Shown: positions 14,027 through 21,232 of the stretch, piece after piece | How positions within the stretch are numbered: the stretch's first letter is position 1 | How the letters are laid out: each line of letters begins with the position of its first letter | DNA from: Chamaesiphon minutus PCC 6605 | GTDB taxonomy: Bacteria > Cyanobacteriota > Cyanobacteriia > Cyanobacteriales > Chamaesiphonaceae | Length of the DNA: 64,000 nucleotides | NCBI RefSeq assembly: GCF_000317145.1 | Contig: NC_019697.1 | Span: forward strand, 5,468,886 to 5,532,885 | Direction: 5' to 3' | The notes under the pieces: model-generated | The model's database searches: none | What the model was told of the DNA's origin: nothing | The model's input: the letters and a program-made list of their open reading frames with translations, nothing else | Program-made: the position numbers and the translations under genes

Positions 14027-14060
14027 TAAAAACCCCTATCTCCATGGCGAGATAGGGGTT
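14027..14060 (-). terminator. Rho-independent terminator of the TROVE operon
   Basis: Read on the minus strand, stem arms AACCCCTATCTC and GAGATAGGGGTT (12 bp) enclose a 6-base loop and are followed by TTTATC. It lies 23 bp after the TROVE stop codon, in the right orientation to end the tRNA-array, 550-residue protein and TROVE transcript. Confidence 0.8.
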
Positions 14061-14082
14061 GAGGGAAATTAAAATTTCTGGG

Positions 14083-15699
14083 TCATAATTCACCGCTAGC
14101 GATCGATTGAATTAATCTGGGCGTACTCGGATCGAAGCCAGCAATATCCCAAGAATTAGGATCTTTGGGATCTACCAACGATATATTATTTGGTACTAAG
14201 GAGATATAAATCGCTTTAGCTTCGGGATTCACTTGCTGACGATATTCTGCTAAAGCTTGAGAGGGGTGTTGATTTCCCGCCCAGCTTTCACAGTCAGTCC
14301 AAAAACAAATTACATCGGCATAAAAGTTATTTTTAATCATCCACTTGTAAGCACTGCTGGCATCAGTACCGCCAAAGTTGAGATCGCTAGCTTTCTGCAT
14401 TGCCGAGCTAAATGAGTCGCTGCGATTAATTTTCAAGTCGATAAAATTGGTTGAAAACCCACGAATTGCGTAGTTTTTTTCTGCTTTTGCCGATGTTAAC
14501 GACATGGTAGTGGCAATTTCGCAACAGGTGAGATTAATCGAACTTACGGAGTAGTAAGACATCGAACCAGAAATATCGACAGCGTGCATAAACACTTTGC
14601 CAGTAGGCTCGATCGCATCGAAGGACATTTCTAAAGCTGTTTCTAAAATATCGACGATCCGAGGTACCGGAGTCCAAGTTTTGCTACTTTTCCCCAAACT
14701 ACCGCCAGAGCGATAAGTTTTGAGTGCTTTTAAAACATCGATCGGGTGGATGCGTCCTTTGCATAAGTGTTCTTTACTATTGAGGATTGCGGCGACTCTG
14801 TTGAGATTTTTATTGGACTTCTTGGAGTAAGCCAAGATCCCAATTTCGGTTAAGGAACCGAGGTTTCGCAATAAGGCACCGATCGGCATATCTTCAAATA
14901 ACAACTGCCAAGCACCGAGATCCATTTTGCCAACGGGTGCAGCCATTTCATGAGTCAAGCGACCCTGAGAAATTGCCGTCTGAGTGTGCTCTGGATTGCG
15001 TTTTAACCATTCGTACCACCAGATTTGATTTAACGCATCTGTAGGCGATTTTGGAGGCAATTCCTCCCACCCATTGGTTACCCATTTAAACAATAAATCG
15101 CGATCTTCGGTTTGCGGTTTGGCATGGAACAATCGTAAGGCATCGCGATTGGAAAAACCGTGGCGTTGTTGATATTTCAACAATTGATAAGCTAGAGCTT
15201 TGGTATCGCCCTGCAACAACCAATTTTTACCAGCTTCGCGGACAATTTTACCGAAACCGCGCACGGATTTGGTATAACTCATCCACTCATAAAAGTGGCT
15301 AGCTGTCCGCACGACTTGTGGAAATATCGCTTGAAATGCTTTCTTGGCAGCGGGACTTTCGCCCATCGAGAGTAATACTAATGCCCAAATTGGCGCACTA
15401 TTATTAATCGATCGACCATCGGAAGCATAAGCGATTTCCTGTGCCACTCGATCGGGATCTTCAGCGATCGCTTTTTCCAAAACATCGACAAAATCGTTGG
15501 TTAATTCCCATTTGGTTGCGTAGTAACTACCGTTACCAGTTCCGATTAACAAGCACCGACGCAATGTTCGCCACATGCCAGCTCGGAACATATAACCACC
15601 GGATTTACCTTGAATCATTTCTGATTCGCGTCCGGGAATTGGTTGGGTTTGGGGTGTATTTTGGGTTTGTTTATTTCCGAAAAAGAATTGATAAGTCAT
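14083..15699 (-). CDS. rsr: TROVE-vWA RNA-binding protein (Ro60/Rsr family)
   Basis: This 538-residue protein has the two-part architecture of Ro60. A helical TROVE ring spans about 27-345 (GGYMFRAGMWRTLRRCLLIGT, then WALVLLSMGESPAAKKAF and FYEWMSYTKSVRGFGKIVR). A C-terminal von Willebrand A domain has a complete MIDAS: D375, S377 and S379 in DISGS, T445 in GGTDAS, and D469 in FWTDC. Ro60 orthologues bind Y RNAs and the ends of misfolded RNAs, and in bacteria work in RNA quality control and with exonucleases. It is the last gene of a minus-strand series that begins with a tRNA-like array, 280 bp after an unknown 550-residue protein. That context suggests its RNA partners are encoded upstream. 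Confidence 0.92.
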   Translation of the reverse strand: MTYQFFFGNKQTQNTPQTQPIPGRESEMIQGKSGGYMFRAGMWRTLRRCLLIGTGNGSYYATKWELTNDFVDVLEKAIAEDPDRVAQEIAYASDGRSINNSAPIWALVLLSMGESPAAKKAFQAIFPQVVRTASHFYEWMSYTKSVRGFGKIVREAGKNWLLQGDTKALAYQLLKYQQRHGFSNRDALRLFHAKPQTEDRDLLFKWVTNGWEELPPKSPTDALNQIWWYEWLKRNPEHTQTAISQGRLTHEMAAPVGKMDLGAWQLLFEDMPIGALLRNLGSLTEIGILAYSKKSNKNLNRVAAILNSKEHLCKGRIHPIDVLKALKTYRSGGSLGKSSKTWTPVPRIVDILETALEMSFDAIEPTGKVFMHAVDISGSMSYYSVSSINLTCCEIATTMSLTSAKAEKNYAIRGFSTNFIDLKINRSDSFSSAMQKASDLNFGGTDASSAYKWMIKNNFYADVICFWTDCESWAGNQHPSQALAEYRQQVNPEAKAIYISLVPNNISLVDPKDPNSWDIAGFDPSTPRLIQSIASGEL

Positions 15700-15812
15700 G
15701 ATTTTTAACTTCCTTCAGCCCGTTGGGGCAATGTTATGAAAGTGGATAGTGGATAGTGAATAGTAGATCGTAGTTGGTTTCTTGATTAGTTAACTGTTAC
15801 TTCGATCGACCA

Positions 15813-15923
15813 AGCGGTTAGAAACCGCTCCTCATGATGCAAAGTCCGCCTGCGCGGACTAGTTTATTAGTCCACGTAGCGGCTTGCGCTCGTCCGGGAA
15901 CCCGAACGGAGCGCATCCGCAAG
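15813..15923. repeat. Cluster of three strong hairpins between the two TROVE-operon genes
   Basis: Three palindromes lie in a row: AGCGGTT/AACCGCT at 15813-15829, AGTCCGC/GCGGACT at 15843-15860, and a long one at 15883-15923 with arms CTTGCGCTCGTCCGGG and its near-complement. They resemble palindromic extragenic repeats common in cyanobacteria. A structured RNA bound by the neighbouring TROVE protein is an alternative reading that only expression data could settle. Confidence 0.6.
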
Positions 15924-15979
15924 TAGAGCACCTTTTCAAGACACAATCGTTGGCGGTTCCATAGGTAACAAACACAACA

Positions 15980-17632
15980 TTAATCCCAGCGATCGAGTTG
16001 ATAATTAACCTGCAAATTATCGCTAGTAGTTACGCGCAACAGAATAAGATCCCAAGTGCCGCCTTTTTGCAAACCAATTCCACAAGCTGTTGCTTCGTCT
16101 TTGCCTGCTAACACCGCATTTTGAGCGTAAGCTTCCATCGTCGATCGAATGCTATGGTATTCACTTTTGAGTGATTCAGGAAAAAATCCAGCACCTTTTT
16201 GGTATTGTTTATCCTTGGCATTTTGCAGGAGCAAAAATGCTTTTTCTCCTTTATGGGCAAACTTTTCAGCATCTTTCCATAATGAAGGCTGAAGGACGAT
16301 CGCCGTTACGGGGCAATAAGTATTGGAGCGTAAATTCCATGCGTTAGGAGACGAACCATTTGCATAAAAATACCAAGTGACTGGATTGCGATCCTCTAGC
16401 ATATCCCATTGAATAATGGGTGGAGCTTCGGGATTTGTGGCTGTCACCAATGCCATATAAGCTTGCTGACTGGCGGGTACAAAATACTCGATCGTTTTAG
16501 CCGTCGGTAAAATAGTGCGAGCGAACTTTTCCCACGTCATTACGATCGATGGAAGATCGATCTGTTGCTGGGCTTTGGTTGTAGCCGTTTGGAGATGGCC
16601 GAAAATTCCTTTGGATTCGACCTTTGGCGCGGTGGGATGTGGCATCCAGAGAGCCTGAAGATCTTCCAGCTTGGCAAATCGCCGATCTAATGCACCTGCG
16701 GTTTGGAGCTGTGCGACAATCTTCTCAGCTTGAGCAATATTCCCCGCTTTCGGCGGTGCTTGAGGGCGAAGATATTGCAACGGGTTCATTTTGGCATTAA
16801 ATCTGTCCGCAATCTGTTGAAATGTCAGCTCATTCTGGATATCTTCGAGCAGAGTACCAATCATTCCGCTGCGGATATGACAATAGCCTGGAGGCGCGTT
16901 CGCCACAGCCAACCAAGTCAGATTTTCCCGCAGGCGCGAGTTCCGCACCGATTGGCGTTGCTGTTGCAGATCCAAAAACCATTTGGCAATCCCCAGACAT
17001 GCTTCCGATCGATAGAGCTGGGCGTTGGAGAGCAAGGAGTATGCTTGTGTTGCCACTTGCAATGAAAAATCTGCCAAGCCACGCACGAGCATTTGATATT
17101 CTTGCCGCTTTTGAGCTAACGTCTGGTAAGTCGAATAAATTGGTGTAGACTTAAATACCAAATCTTCACCAGGAACGACCGAAAAATGCTCCCAGATGCC
17201 AGTTACCGGAGTACCCCAAGTTTGCAGATCCGAAAGAAATACATTGTCTATTGCCGCTTCCGCAACAACTGATGCCAACTTACCGACGGCTGGCGCATAA
17301 ACTTCGGGGACGAGTTTGGGATTCCACATTACCGGAGTCGTTTTGCCATCTGGATCGATCGTGACAATGCCACCATATCGCGCGACAAACTGCCAACAGC
17401 TATTACAAGTATGGTTTTGACGGAAATCTGGGGGCATTGCCGACAGGAAGATGGAGAACAGCTCGGTGGTAGCAGTGGTAAATAGATTTACCTTACCCTG
17501 TCGATCTTGAGTCACGGTGCGGAATTGCTCTCGAATGGACTGGCGAAGCAGATTGGAGTAATGACAGATCTCTCGATTTGGGTGCTTATCGATCGAGGGT
17601 TGAGATGAGCGAGAAGATTCAGAAAGAGACAT
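15980..17632 (-). CDS. Unknown 550-residue protein between the tRNA-like array and the TROVE gene
   Basis: I do not recognise this family. The 550-residue protein has no signal peptide or membrane helix. A CxxC pair is visible (HTCNSCW, C76 and C79), close to a W and an aromatic-rich segment, and may bind zinc with other Cys or His residues. The middle (about 180-330) is helical and glutamine-rich. The C-terminal third holds WYFYANGSSPNAWNL, PEAPPIIQWDM and GIGLQKGGTWDLILLRV. It starts about 70 bp after the last tRNA-like RNA (17704) and precedes the TROVE gene on the same strand, so the three are likely co-transcribed. A role in handling the RNAs or as a TROVE partner is inference from position only. 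Confidence 0.8.
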   Translation of the reverse strand: MSLSESSRSSQPSIDKHPNREICHYSNLLRQSIREQFRTVTQDRQGKVNLFTTATTELFSIFLSAMPPDFRQNHTCNSCWQFVARYGGIVTIDPDGKTTPVMWNPKLVPEVYAPAVGKLASVVAEAAIDNVFLSDLQTWGTPVTGIWEHFSVVPGEDLVFKSTPIYSTYQTLAQKRQEYQMLVRGLADFSLQVATQAYSLLSNAQLYRSEACLGIAKWFLDLQQQRQSVRNSRLRENLTWLAVANAPPGYCHIRSGMIGTLLEDIQNELTFQQIADRFNAKMNPLQYLRPQAPPKAGNIAQAEKIVAQLQTAGALDRRFAKLEDLQALWMPHPTAPKVESKGIFGHLQTATTKAQQQIDLPSIVMTWEKFARTILPTAKTIEYFVPASQQAYMALVTATNPEAPPIIQWDMLEDRNPVTWYFYANGSSPNAWNLRSNTYCPVTAIVLQPSLWKDAEKFAHKGEKAFLLLQNAKDKQYQKGAGFFPESLKSEYHSIRSTMEAYAQNAVLAGKDEATACGIGLQKGGTWDLILLRVTTSDNLQVNYQLDRWD

Positions 17633-17703
17633 ATCGTACCTGCATTATTGTTAAAGTTTTAATGGATATTTTACAAATGAGATCGGCTGGAGGCGATCGA
17701 AAA

Positions 17704-17828
17704 TCAGCAGAGTGGGATTTGCACCCACATCTTTGCCTTGGCGATAACCCTCGTTCTGTCGTCCTTTTCAGGCAATTAAAGTCGAGCAAGGATAAAAGCG
17801 ATGTTTTATCTAGTTAAACTATCTGCCG
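17704..17828 (-). ncRNA. tRNA-like RNA A with ~50-nt insert in the anticodon arm
   Basis: A 125-nt RNA. Acceptor arms CGGCAGA/TCTGCTG pair over 7 bp, with discriminator A. The D arm is GTTT-loop-AAAC, with A18-G19 in place of G18-G19. The T arm is GTGGG-TGCAAAT-CCCAC, so position 55 is G. Between D and T arms lie about 50 extra nt, with the hairpin CCT-GAAA-AGG followed by the core GGACGACAGAACGAGG and GTTATCG. If the insert is removed before GCC, a Gly(GCC)-like anticodon arm TCGCT/GGCAA with one mismatch can be drawn, but this is uncertain. It is not a standard tRNA. Confidence 0.75.
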
Positions 17829-17832
17829 TTGG

Positions 17833-17857
17833 TTACTAATTTATGCAAAATTAGTAA
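17833..17857. other. Perfect hairpin between tRNA-Glu and tRNA-like A
   Basis: A perfect inverted repeat, arms TTACTAATTT and AAATTAGTAA with a 5-base loop, sits directly against the 3' end of the interrupted tRNA-Glu. It is AT-rich and lacks a T tail. It could be a processing signal or a remnant terminator. Confidence 0.6.
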
Positions 17858-17953
17858 TACTCCCAAGGGGAATCGTTGGCGAAGCCTCTCCGAAGGAGAT
17901 ACCCCTATTTTGGTGTAGAAAGCACCGTGTCCTAACCGTTAGACGATGGGAGC
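17858..17953 (-). tRNA. tRNA-Glu(UUC) with a repeat inserted in the T-loop
   Basis: A 96-nt gene. Acceptor GCTCCCA/TGGGAGT pairs with one G-U, discriminator A. The D arm has a normal GG, and the anticodon loop CTTTCTA gives UUC (Glu). The T stem AGGGG/CCCCT is intact, but the loop is 31 nt instead of 7: the dispersed repeat TCTCC...CCAACGA (17873-17899 on the plus strand) sits inside it and forms its own hairpin. The gene is probably defective as a tRNA unless the insert is tolerated or removed. Confidence 0.75.
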
Positions 17954-17993
17954 AAATTGGATATAGAGAGTCATAAATGCTCTCACTGCCTCG

Positions 17994-18082
17994 CTAGGGA
18001 TCGTTGGCGTAGCCTCTCCGACAGGAGAGACCCACAACCGATCGCTTATCAAGCGATTACTCTGCCATTGAGCTACACTTCC
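17994..18082 (-). pseudogene. Truncated tRNA-Ile(GAU) with the same T-loop insertion
   Basis: The 5' part is sound: GGAAGTG acceptor strand, D arm GCTC/GAGT with normal GG, anticodon stem ATCGC/GCGAT with loop TTGATAA (anticodon GAU), and 5' T-stem GTGGG. Directly after T54 the dispersed repeat begins (18001-18028 on the plus strand). After it only CCC of the T stem remains, and no 3' acceptor strand follows. It is therefore a pseudogene. The insertion point matches that in the neighbouring tRNA-Glu. Confidence 0.7.
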
Positions 18083-18112
18083 AGAAATAACCAACTCTGG
18101 TTAGGAGTCGGA

Positions 18113-18185
18113 CGAGATTGACGGGATTCGAACCCGCGACTTTCCGCTAGACAGGCGGACGCTCTCACCACTGAGCTACAATCCC
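18113..18185 (-). tRNA. tRNA-Asp(GUC), copy 1
   Basis: A standard 73-nt tRNA gene: acceptor GGGATTG/CAATCTC (one G-U), discriminator G, D arm with GG, anticodon stem TCCGC/GCGGA with loop CTGTCTA (anticodon GUC), and T arm GCGGG-TTCGAAT-CCCGC. No CCA is encoded. It is almost identical to the copy at 18382-18454, and the spacers upstream of both are also similar, showing segmental duplication. Confidence 0.93.
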
Positions 18186-18227
18186 AAATATAGTTTTGGG
18201 GAATTGCCAATTCTCAAACGAATTGGA

Positions 18228-18352
18228 TGAAACTGGTAGGAATCGAACCTACGACCTCCCGCTTAGAAGGCGATAACCCTTGTTCTACGTCCCCGAAAGG
18301 CAAAAAGTGAAGAAGGATGTTTTAGGTGCTCTATCCACTGAGCTACAGTTCC
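18228..18352 (-). tRNA. tRNA-Arg(UCU)-like RNA with ~51-nt insert in the anticodon stem
   Basis: A 125-nt RNA with acceptor GGAACTG/CAGTTTC and discriminator A, D arm GCTC-AGTGGATA-GAGC with normal GG, and a canonical T arm GTAGG-TTCGATT-CCTAC. Anticodon loop CTTCTAA (UCU) is followed by GCGGG. The matching 5' strand CCCGC is split as CC and CGC by about 51 nt that contain the core GGGGACGTAGAACAAGG and GTTAT. If the insert is removed, a perfect tRNA-Arg results, so an intron-like insert is one reading. It shares the insert, but not the A18/G55 change, with RNAs A, C and D. Confidence 0.75.
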
Positions 18353-18381
18353 AGAAATACCAACCCTGATTAGGAGTTGGA

Positions 18382-18454
18382 CGAGATTGACGGGAGTCGA
18401 ACCCGCGACTTTCCGCTAGACAGGCGGACGCTCTCACCACTGAGCTACAATCCC
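18382..18454 (-). tRNA. tRNA-Asp(GUC), copy 2
   Basis: A standard 73-nt gene, identical to copy 1 except for the T-loop, which reads TTCGACT instead of TTCGAAT. Acceptor, D arm, anticodon loop CTGTCTA and T stem are intact. The neighbouring spacer (CCAACCCTGATTAGGAGTTGG-like) resembles that of copy 1, supporting duplication of an Asp-plus-spacer unit. Confidence 0.93.
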
Positions 18455-18458
18455 AAAT

Positions 18459-18579
18459 TAGGTGGGGCAGGAATTGCACCTGCGATGGCTAAACCTCGAT
18501 AATCCTCGTTCTACGTCCCTGATGGGCAAGTGAGCGAATAAGGAATAAAATAGCTGCCTTACTACTTGGCTACCCACCT
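18459..18579 (-). ncRNA. tRNA-like RNA C with ~50-nt insert in the anticodon arm
   Basis: A 121-nt RNA with a perfect acceptor stem AGGTGGG/CCCACCT and discriminator A. The D arm is GCC-loop-GGC, with A18-G19. The T arm is GCAGG-TGCAATT-CCTGC (G55). The insert carries the hairpin CCC-ATCA-GGG followed by ACGTAGAACGAGG and ATTATCG. Outside the insert GCTA and TAGC can pair as the anticodon stem, but no loop with U33 can be formed. It begins only 5 nt after tRNA-Asp copy 2 ends in the array. Confidence 0.75.
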
Positions 18580-18594
18580 AGATGATGATTTGAG

Positions 18595-18718
18595 GTAGCG
18601 AGGCGGGAGTTGCACCCGCATTTCCGACGATGCGAGGGGGGATTCGTTAAAAGCGATAACCCTCATATCTGCGCCCCTTGCGGGTAAAAATGGTACTTTG
18701 CTATTAAGCTACTCGCTA
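18595..18718 (-). ncRNA. tRNA-like RNA D, first RNA of the array
   Basis: A 124-nt RNA with a perfect acceptor stem TAGCGAG/CTCGCTA. The D arm is GCTT-loop-AAGT with A18-G19. The T arm is GCGGG-TGCAACT-CCCGC (G55). The insert holds CCC-GCAA-GGG (a GNRA tetraloop hairpin), then GCGCAGATATGAGG and GTTATCG. A loop CTTTTAA resembling Lys(UUU) follows, but a second stretch of about 18 nt separates it from the likely 3' strand CGG. Total length is kept close to the other three. It is the promoter-proximal member of the array. Confidence 0.72.
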
Positions 18719-18986
18719 CATGTGGTTTGAATTTAATGCGGTTGGTTAAGTCTTCATCTCGGTTGCTCCTGTTGTGTTTGTTTCCATGTACACAGAATAG
18801 CCTCAGAGACTAACCCGAAGCTAACTCGAGATCGAATCGCTAGAACATATACCAGATAAAGATTTTAGACTTAGGGGAAAAGTTTCACCCAGGGGATACC
18901 CCGAACTTTGCCACGGAATTTGCTGGGGTTGACTTGTAGGATGACTTAGTTTCTGGCTAAAAATCGGCACCAAGGCGATCGAAACT

Positions 18987-19833: not shown

Positions 19834-20415
19834 ATGGCAGTCTCATTAGCCAAAGGGCAGCGTGTATCTCTAGAGAAAATCGCTCCAGGATTGACCGAAA
19901 TTTTCGTTGGGTTGGGTTGGGATGTCAAAGCGGTAGATACAGGGGTAGATTTCGATCTCGATGCTTCTGTGTTCTTACTCGGCAGTAACGAGAAATTGAT
20001 TTCTGACAAACATTTCATTTTTTATAATAATCTCACCAGTCCAGATGCCTCAAAATCTGTCGAACATACTGGCGATAATCTCACTGGTGCAGGCGATGGC
20101 GATGATGAGATGGTTAAGATTAACTTCAAACAAGTTCCGGCGGAAGTAGATAAGATTGTCGTTGCAGTGACAATTCACGAAGCTCAAGAACGCAAGCAAA
20201 ATTTCGGTCAAGTTCAAAACGCGTTTGTTCGCATCGTCGATCTCCGAACTGAAAAAGAAGTCGTGCGTTATGACTTGGTAGAAGACTACTCCACCGAGAC
20301 AGCTCTGATTATGGCCGAACTCTATCGCAAAGATGGTGAATGGCGACTCAATGCCGTTGGGGCTGGTTATCAAGGCGGTTTGCAAGCATTACTCGATCGG
20401 TATCAACCAAATTAG
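19834..20415 (+). CDS. terD: TerD-family protein 1
   Basis: This 193-residue protein has the TerD calcium-binding fold: GLGWDVKAVDTGVDFDLDASVFLL, the acidic loop GDNLTGAGDGDDE, and IVVAVTIHEAQERKQNFGQV. TerD proteins bind Ca2+ through these acidic loops and belong to tellurite and general stress-response systems. The gene opens a four-gene Ter neighbourhood (terD, terD, metallopeptidase, terC). It has an AAAGGA-type ribosome site before ATG 19834. Confidence 0.92.
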   Translation: MAVSLAKGQRVSLEKIAPGLTEIFVGLGWDVKAVDTGVDFDLDASVFLLGSNEKLISDKHFIFYNNLTSPDASKSVEHTGDNLTGAGDGDDEMVKINFKQVPAEVDKIVVAVTIHEAQERKQNFGQVQNAFVRIVDLRTEKEVVRYDLVEDYSTETALIMAELYRKDGEWRLNAVGAGYQGGLQALLDRYQPN

Positions 20416-20459
20416 GGGATAGGGGATAGGGGATAGGGATTAGCCTTTAGGCTTTAATT

Positions 20460-20590
20460 TTTAAGATTAGATTGCTCGCTAGCAACCTAATCTTGTAAAT
20501 CTTTGAATCCTATAAATCCTGATTAGGCTTTAGGATTAGATTACTCGCCAGTAACCTAATCCTGTAAATCTTTGAATCCTGTAAATCCCG
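20460..20590. repeat. Two tandem copies of a ~60-bp AATCCTGTAAATC repeat
   Basis: Two copies in a row of a unit containing AGATTRCTCGCYAGYAACC, TAATCYTGTAAATCTTTGAATCC and TRTAAATCC lie between the two terD genes. Single copies of the same family occur near 40540, 47640, 53115 and 61170, usually ending in CCCGATCGG, so it is a dispersed repeat that was tandemly duplicated here. Confidence 0.7.
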
Positions 20591-20623
20591 ATCGATAATC
20601 AATCAACTTAGGAAGAATCATTT

Positions 20624-21232
20624 ATGGCAATAAGTCTGCAAAAAGGACAACGAATTTCATTATCTAAAGAAGCACCAGGACTGAGCAAAATTATTTGCGG
20701 ATTGGGTTGGGATGTCATCAAACCTGCTGGTGGTGGATTTTTTAGTAATTTTGGTAACAAAGCAGGTCAAGAGTACGATCTCGATGCTTCGGTAATTTGC
20801 CTCAGTGATAATGGCAAGTTAACTGATAACCAAAATATCATTTACTTTGGCAATCTCAGTCATCCTTCAGGTGCGATCGTCCATCAAGGCGATAATCTCA
20901 CTGGTGCAGGTGACGGAGATGATGAAATAATTATTATCGATTTGGCACGGATTCCTTCTAGTATTACTAAACTAGTATTCGTGGTAAATATCTATGATTG
21001 TCAAGCTCGCAAGCAAGATTTTAGTAAAATTGAAAATGCTTTTGTGCGCCTAGTTAATGTCGCAAATAATCAAGAATTGGCGAGATTTAATCTCTCTGGT
21101 CAAGATTATCAAGGGATGACTGGTATGATTCTAGCTGAGGTCTATCGTCACAATGACGAATGGAAAATGGCCGCGATTGGCAATGGTGTTAGTGTCAATG
21201 GGCTGGGCGAACTAGTCAAATCTTATATCTAG
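20624..21232 (+). CDS. terD: TerD-family protein 2
   Basis: This 202-residue paralogue of the preceding gene has the same landmarks: GLGWDVIKPAGG, YDLDASVICL, GDNLTGAGDGDDE and NIYDCQARKQDFSKIENAF. It differs by a glycine-rich insertion GGGFFSNFGNKAGQ after the first strand. It is a Ca2+-binding stress protein of the same Ter system. An AGGAAGA ribosome site precedes ATG 20624, and a terminator-like hairpin follows at 21250. Confidence 0.92.
   Translation: MAISLQKGQRISLSKEAPGLSKIICGLGWDVIKPAGGGFFSNFGNKAGQEYDLDASVICLSDNGKLTDNQNIIYFGNLSHPSGAIVHQGDNLTGAGDGDDEIIIIDLARIPSSITKLVFVVNIYDCQARKQDFSKIENAFVRLVNVANNQELARFNLSGQDYQGMTGMILAEVYRHNDEWKMAAIGNGVSVNGLGELVKSYI

Follow-up and report, generated by a model that had tools for sequence, protein, structure and literature searches.

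Homologues of Ro60 bind Y RNAs, and in Deinococcus a Y RNA tethers the homologue Rsr to PNPase, according to PMC7790460. In the Rfam model of the bacterial Y RNA YrlA (RF02553), the order is permuted, the T arm coming before the D arm, and a long stem formed from the two ends of the RNA lies where the anticodon arm would be. This end-formed stem binds Ro60. Group I introns occur in cyanobacterial tRNAs, where they are inserted in the anticodon arm. In Anabaena PCC 7120, the trn operon encodes 26 tRNAs and is repressed by TrcR, as described in PMC10272220. We have analyzed a stretch of 64,000 nucleotides (nt) of Chamaesiphon minutus PCC 6605 (NC_019697.1, positions 5,468,886 to 5,532,885; hereafter the window), whose source genome is of 6.76 Mb in 3 contigs. 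On its minus strand are found, in this order, an array of eight tRNA-like units (18719-17703), an open reading frame (ORF) of 550 codons (17632-15980), an ORF encoding a 538-residue protein of the TROVE/Ro60 family (15699-14083) and a terminator. The initial annotation had proposed the array and the two ORFs on one strand, and all of them were present where it had placed them. On the basis of sequence comparisons, we consider it likely that the RNAs of the array are Y-RNA-like partners of the Ro60/TROVE protein.

Several array units are interrupted in the anticodon arm by a module of about 55 nt, made of a stem AUCCUU/AGGGUU, a stem UUC/GAA and a hairpin GCC..GGC followed by a near-invariant UUAUCG. 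The module's CCUUGUUC and GGGUUAUC may resemble short stretches of human Y RNAs, a likeness which was not used as evidence. A covariance model (R1) was built on eight inserts from three genomes, and R2 is a second model of the module. In an alignment of 150 matches (A3), which was fitted to the covariance model and is biased towards it, the three stems comprised 95.8% standard pairs, 8 of the 12 pairs changed on both sides, and the observed values were reached by 0 of 500 shuffles on four measures and by 1 of 500 on the fifth. Every pairing measure dropped when the partner strand was slid.

The module was found by R1 in 100 of 388 genomes of the order (E ≤ 0.01), and a TROVE protein in 108 of them (E ≤ 0.001). 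Both were present in 97 genomes, the module only in 3, TROVE only in 11 and neither in 277 (Fisher p 2e-74, uncorrected for kinship); by genus, the figures were 53 of 149 for the module and 55 of 149 for TROVE. The three module-only genomes (G084, G335, G344) gave weak matches, with E 3e-4 to 2e-3. Of the genomes with TROVE only, six have nothing more of it than fragments of 30-202 residues, two (G352, G353) have partial TROVE genes and no module in the fetched stretches, and one (G245) has a divergent TROVE, 32% identical. In the last two (G197 and G232, loci L106 and L136), a module was found with R2, in a recheck limited to these exceptions. In a sample of 292 genomes of the phylum, partly overlapping the 388, the module (R2) was present in 25, TROVE in 28 and both in 24; G094, G245, G403 and G419 had TROVE only, and G128 had the module only, with no TROVE match in its fetched stretch. 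Positives outside the order were G407, G518 and G421, the latter having both, with a TROVE 34% identical. The exact module pattern was recovered from 17 stretches of a species-genome collection, all in cyanobacterial records. In the culturable Picosynechococcus sp. PCC 7002, plasmid pAQ7 carries a TROVE gene 66.9% identical to the one of the window, and three tRNA-shaped module RNAs, the third weak, lie between phnC and TROVE (L250:3541-3945; 51.6, 25.8 and 18.0 bits, the last with E 0.03); the gene table used for this plasmid included no RNA genes.

The module and TROVE are also closely linked in position. On the fetched TROVE neighbourhoods of relatives, R1 gave 246 matches to E 0.01 from 78 sources. 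A regular expression applied to the 76 loci with a TROVE match gave 222 matches, 203 upstream of TROVE, 19 downstream and none on the opposite strand, the one in L034 being a false, low-complexity match. Likewise, 142 of the best 150 covariance-model matches fell in TROVE loci, 133 upstream, 9 downstream and none on the opposite strand. Between the end of the nearest upstream module and TROVE, the median distance is 101 nt, and loci with matches have a median of 3 modules. Four of the 76 loci were without a regular-expression match (L049, L136, L144, L149), of which L136 and L144 were positive by covariance model. Neighbouring proteins are not conserved, the next commonest ORF families after TROVE being present in 24 of 76 loci. 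The divergent TROVE of G421 (L237) lies within a tRNA array of 29 ARAGORN calls with two module matches, and the one of G245 (L240) within a plain tRNA array of 21 ARAGORN calls, where no module match was better than E 4.7. Next to the TROVE gene of L237, a YrlA-like match of 38.4 bits was observed at 6521-6420. The initial annotation had proposed that the tRNA-like RNAs belong with the TROVE protein, and had asked whether the parts ever occur together in other genomes. Since module and TROVE do co-occur, adjoining and on the same strand, the pairing of array and TROVE passes this comparison and is strongly supported.

The module is carried by a body that has the parts of a tRNA. A T arm was found in 138 of the 150 matches, and 133 of these 138 have a seven-pair acceptor, versus 27% when flanks were swapped between loci. 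When a D arm was also required, 120 units were complete, 18 were without a D arm and 12 without a T arm. In 75 of the 120 complete units, the module sits between positions 28 and 29 and the anticodon hairpin is kept. This class is defined by pairing of positions 29-31 with 39-41, U33 being no part of the definition; U33 was nevertheless present in 75 of 75 units, positions 27-28 were both paired with 42-43 in 67, and positions 29-30 were CG in 74. In 7 of the 120 units, by a strict five-pair rule, the outer stem is intact and the module lies within its loop. The 75 units display 22 different anticodons, and 18 of them have A34 or stop anticodons: AGG (10), AAA (2), ACU, AUA, UUA (3) and UCA (1). 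A tRNA-like domain, as in bacterial Y RNAs, is thus indicated by the arms and by Rfam tRNA matches across the inserts. An uninterrupted cloverleaf is lacking: ARAGORN called none of the 75 units with the insert in place, so that such RNAs will probably escape ordinary tRNA annotation.

In the window array, two of the eight units are plain tRNA-Asp, two are broken by a repeat and four (c1, c2, c4, c8) carry the anticodon-arm insert; all are on the minus strand. ARAGORN called only the two tRNA-Asp genes, and the Rfam tRNA model spanned the insert in three units (18718-18595, 18579-18459 and 17828-17704) and fitted two further stretches partially (18082-18022, 30.9 bits; 18294-18228, 26.1 bits, below the cut-off of 29). 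Unit c1 (18595-18719; tRNA model 35.7 bits, R2 24.7 bits) has a long variable region with a shortened module at about 18702-18648, and its counterpart is present in G090 and G164. In c2 (18459-18580; tRNA model 44.1 bits), the module (18553-18491) is in the anticodon loop and the outer stem GCUA/UAGC is kept. In c4 (18228-18352), it lies between positions 28 and 29 (18326-18265), and an Arg-UCU-type anticodon loop, CUUCUAA, is retained. Unit c8 (17703-17829; tRNA model 39.8 bits) has its module at 17801-17736. With R1, c2, c4 and c8 scored 72.9, 75.1 and 65.4 bits, but these scores of 65-75 bits were obtained with inserts that belonged to the R1 training set. The module-free tRNA-Asp(GUC) genes are at 18378-18455 and 18110-18186 (Rfam tRNA 67.3 and 69.3 bits). 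Sequence and the tRNA model indicate a decayed unit at 17985-18082, in which the 5' part of a tRNA-Ile(GAU) is followed by an interspersed repeat and the 3' end of a tRNA-Gln; in the relative L002/L014, tRNA-Ile and tRNA-Gln are both intact where the window has the fusion. A tRNA-Glu(UUC)-like unit at 17862-17947, recognised by sequence, has an interspersed repeat (family D6) in its T loop, and L002 and L003 carry a similar insertion in their Glu unit. One and the same interspersed repeat (TCGGAGAGGCT.CGCCAACGAT) is thus present in both broken units, in the 3' part of the Ile-like one (17997-18021) and in the T loop of the Glu-like one (17869-17893).

A second type of RNA carries the module as well. 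Just 3' of TROVE, 22 of the 76 loci have an RNA of 87-117 nt that contains the module but lacks a D arm and any recognisable anticodon hairpin. These D-less RNAs start 12-392 nt past the matched TROVE end and have an acceptor GGCGGG../..CCCGCC, the module, mostly an extra hairpin, and a T arm; the acceptor sequence was required in the search, which other acceptors would escape. In 17 of the 22, a T run of at least 4 lies within 14 nt on the 3' side. The smallest one (L097) consists of acceptor, module and T arm only. When 19 of the 22 were aligned, three near-identical RNAs being omitted, 97.7% of pairs were kept in the module, extra hairpin and T arm, and 9 of 21 pairs changed on both sides, with 0 of 500 shuffles reaching the observed values on all five measures; the acceptor, which the alignment splits, was not counted. 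No such RNA was seen downstream of TROVE in the window. Since it is found in RNAs without a D arm or anticodon hairpin, the module is not simply a tRNA intron, and the D-less RNAs are our main argument that it would work in place rather than being simply removed.

The protein encoded at 14083-15699, judged by its sequence, is a full Ro60/Rsr homologue with a vWA domain. Its 538 residues matched Pfam families over cut-off for TROVE and the Ro60 vWA domain (PF25045, 1.1e-40; PF05731, 5.1e-16), residues 16-530 aligned with Xenopus Ro60 (1yvp, 1.2e-73) and residues 14-537 with D. radiodurans Rsr (2nvo, 1.1e-68). It contains DISGS at 375, GGTD at 443 and TDCES at 468, which we take to be motifs of the MIDAS type. 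Identical letters were also found at Xenopus K170, R174 and H187 (numbered from the alignment), presumably RNA-binding residues in Xenopus Ro60.

Taken together, the cyanobacterial tRNA-shaped RNAs are probably a new, many-copy form of Ro60 partner RNAs, and may be read as Y RNAs in an unpermuted tRNA form, with the module at the anticodon arm, normal ends and several copies per locus. The module stands at the same place relative to the D and T arms as the YrlA stem, and for this reason we take it as a putative Ro60-binding handle, borne by a body that would mimic a tRNA. The tRNA body would recruit factors acting on tRNAs, for end processing, CCA addition, modification and perhaps cleavage by nucleases, and each locus would supply the cell with several different tRNA-shaped Y RNAs. 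They could take part in the quality control of RNA, or act as decoys and sensors for enzymes that cleave tRNAs. For YrlA, PMC7790460 raises the possibility that an anticodon nuclease is inhibited by competition. A bolder version, which we offer tentatively and regard as doubtful, is an inducible panel of Ro60-bound tRNA look-alikes, with different anticodon loops and a body unable to translate, serving as decoys or sensors for the anticodon nucleases of phage defence, phages or competitors, Ro60 then storing or disposing of the cut RNAs. The retained and varied anticodon loops agree with a decoy or sensor role, and the odd anticodons agree badly with translation.

Several observations weigh against the reading of these RNAs as Ro60 partners. 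RF02553 scored over its gathering score of 69 in none of the 41 genomes tried. YrlA matches below the threshold came from 28 of the 41, yet 9 of 14 control genomes gave them too, and the highest-scoring match (50.6 bits) spans two neighbouring units and comprises mainly T and D arms. By eye, the module has no likeness to the Ro-binding stem of Rfam YrlA. Three TROVE loci (L034, L049, L149) are without a convincing module; in two of them the contig breaks off, at the start of the TROVE gene (L049) or 170 nt upstream of it (L034). In addition, 38 of the 120 all-arm units match neither insertion geometry, and the acceptor test is weak alone, since more than a quarter of the swapped flanks still give seven pairs. 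The identification of the array RNAs as Rfam YrlA was itself rejected, the matches being sub-threshold and mainly in the T and D arms.

The module could instead be intron-like, being excised and the halves joined to give ordinary tRNAs for a stress-induced array, with Ro60 assisting or being regulated. The best evidence for splicing is that removal of the module in silico from between positions 28 and 29 yields an ARAGORN tRNA in 74 of the 75 units, versus none with the insert, and the U33 found throughout this class is in its favour. So is a probable CCA-adding enzyme gene which, in 7 of 76 loci, lies on the strand of the array and upstream of it, adjoining it in six (L135, L039, L098, L043, L101, L040) and about 2.4 kilobases away in L142, the enzyme being named from its sequence. 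However, excision could give no tRNA from the 22 downstream RNAs that have neither a D arm nor a recognisable anticodon hairpin, strict loop-inserted units exist, the module itself supplies the CG at positions 29-30 in 74 of 75 units, regardless of isotype, and the A34 or stop anticodons of 18 units fit poorly. No Rfam group I intron was listed in the array to E 5. RtcB was rejected as a neighbour of the locus, no match being found to E 1e-4 in 79 cyanobacterial loci with a single phage RtcB query, which a distant RtcB could escape; the source genome gave one weak match, of 28% identity, far from the locus. An intron-like module is therefore unlikely in our view.

The arrays might also be decaying phage-type tRNA clusters struck by a mobile repeat, with TROVE as a mere passenger. 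Similarity of the tRNA-Asp stretch to phage tRNA-Asp was indeed seen in 370 phage records, at 80-90% identity in 356 of these, the interspersed repeat breaks two window units, and the TROVE gene of Streptomyces phage BoomerJR has tRNA genes around it, as do those of G245 and G421; no tRNA is annotated within 6 kilobases of TROVE in Sinorhizobium phage Phosso. Decay of this kind is very improbable given the single orientation, the location mostly in one tRNA region and the compensatory changes across families. Moreover, the module is missing in 277 of the 280 genomes without a TROVE match, and its exact pattern is absent from viral contigs, which divergent copies would escape.

The 550-residue protein (15980-17632, minus strand) belongs to the phage family phrog_1735 (profile match 7.5e-102), matched no Pfam family to E 0.1 and is accessory to the locus. 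Homologues were found in 458 of 50,697 phage records and 10 of 72,556 plasmids. Its AlphaFold2 model has a mean pLDDT of 88, and a Foldseek search of this model against the PDB gave no match below 0.001 (best E 0.26). C76, C79 and H149 are invariant in 44 sequences (the window protein and 43 viral proteins, alignment A5) and are a possible metal site. In Rhizobium phage RHph_X66, the family gene is directly 3' of RtcB; among 84 loci of the family on phages, viral contigs or plasmids, 5 have a nearby RtcB match and 14 a nearby tRNA, with no consistent link. The initial annotation had seen this protein as a processing factor or partner of the array RNAs and had proposed a search for the same order in other cyanobacteria. 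That order recurs in G090, up to the start of TROVE, and G164 has the array and the 550-residue gene, but a member of the family occurs in only 3 of 291 genomes from the order, which belong to a single genus, and in 1 of 76 TROVE loci, so that the protein is not a general part of the system and a three-part operon was rejected as a general arrangement. A three-part machine in which it processes or partners the array RNAs is hardly credible, with these counts, the scarcity of RtcB and tRNA near the family and the lack of a fold match set against the shared order. Most likely, a phage gene has landed between array and TROVE.

The intrinsic terminator expected 3' of the TROVE gene was borne out by folding: on the minus strand, its stem starts at 14058 and the T run ends at 14028, the 70-nt stretch around it having a fold energy of -22.4 kcal/mol. 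This terminator is absent from the list of the consensus scan. The promoter scan listed no minus-strand site, with 5 sites in total versus 8.5 expected, and no TrcR-like operator was seen by eye upstream of the array in the window or in the sequences of relatives. A gap of 280 nt separates the 550-residue and TROVE ORFs and contains an inverted repeat (15843-15860). A single CRISPR-DR28 match was observed there at 15838-15861 (35.4 bits, cut-off 35), corresponding to one inverted repeat, and no CRISPR array was seen. The locus is adjoined by a TerD-domain protein and a second ORF of similar look (20624-21232), in window positions 19834-21232.

Likely Y RNAs near Ro60 genes were reportedly described in many species by Chen et al. 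in 2014, and may include some of the present RNAs. No description of them was recognised in literature titles and abstracts, and that article or a 2020 review may hold one. Compared with Ro60 and Rsr (1yvp, 2nvo), the window protein is alike in having full-length TROVE and vWA domains with motifs presumably of the MIDAS type, whereas the cyanobacterial gene differs in standing beside a multi-copy array of tRNA-shaped RNAs, with no RtcB match near the loci examined. Like a group I intron, the module interrupts a tRNA gene in its anticodon arm; unlike one, it is about 55 nt long, has no Rfam match and is also present in RNAs without an anticodon arm. The Anabaena trn operon is likewise a cyanobacterial tRNA array additional to the housekeeping tRNAs, but the accessible part of PMC10272220 makes no mention of insert-bearing tRNAs, and the term TROVE is absent from its main text. 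A form that is widespread in cyanobacteria, with several tRNA-shaped partners at each locus, and that occurs in PCC 7002 would make the function of bacterial Ro60 and Y RNAs testable. With YrlA, the cyanobacterial RNAs share tRNA-like D and T arms, a neighbouring Ro60 gene, next to which the module RNAs are encoded, and a stem at the place of the anticodon arm. They differ from it in that they keep the normal tRNA order and acceptor-stem ends, are arranged in arrays and in many cases retain an anticodon loop; if our reading is true, the tRNA mimicry of Y RNAs exists in two topologies.

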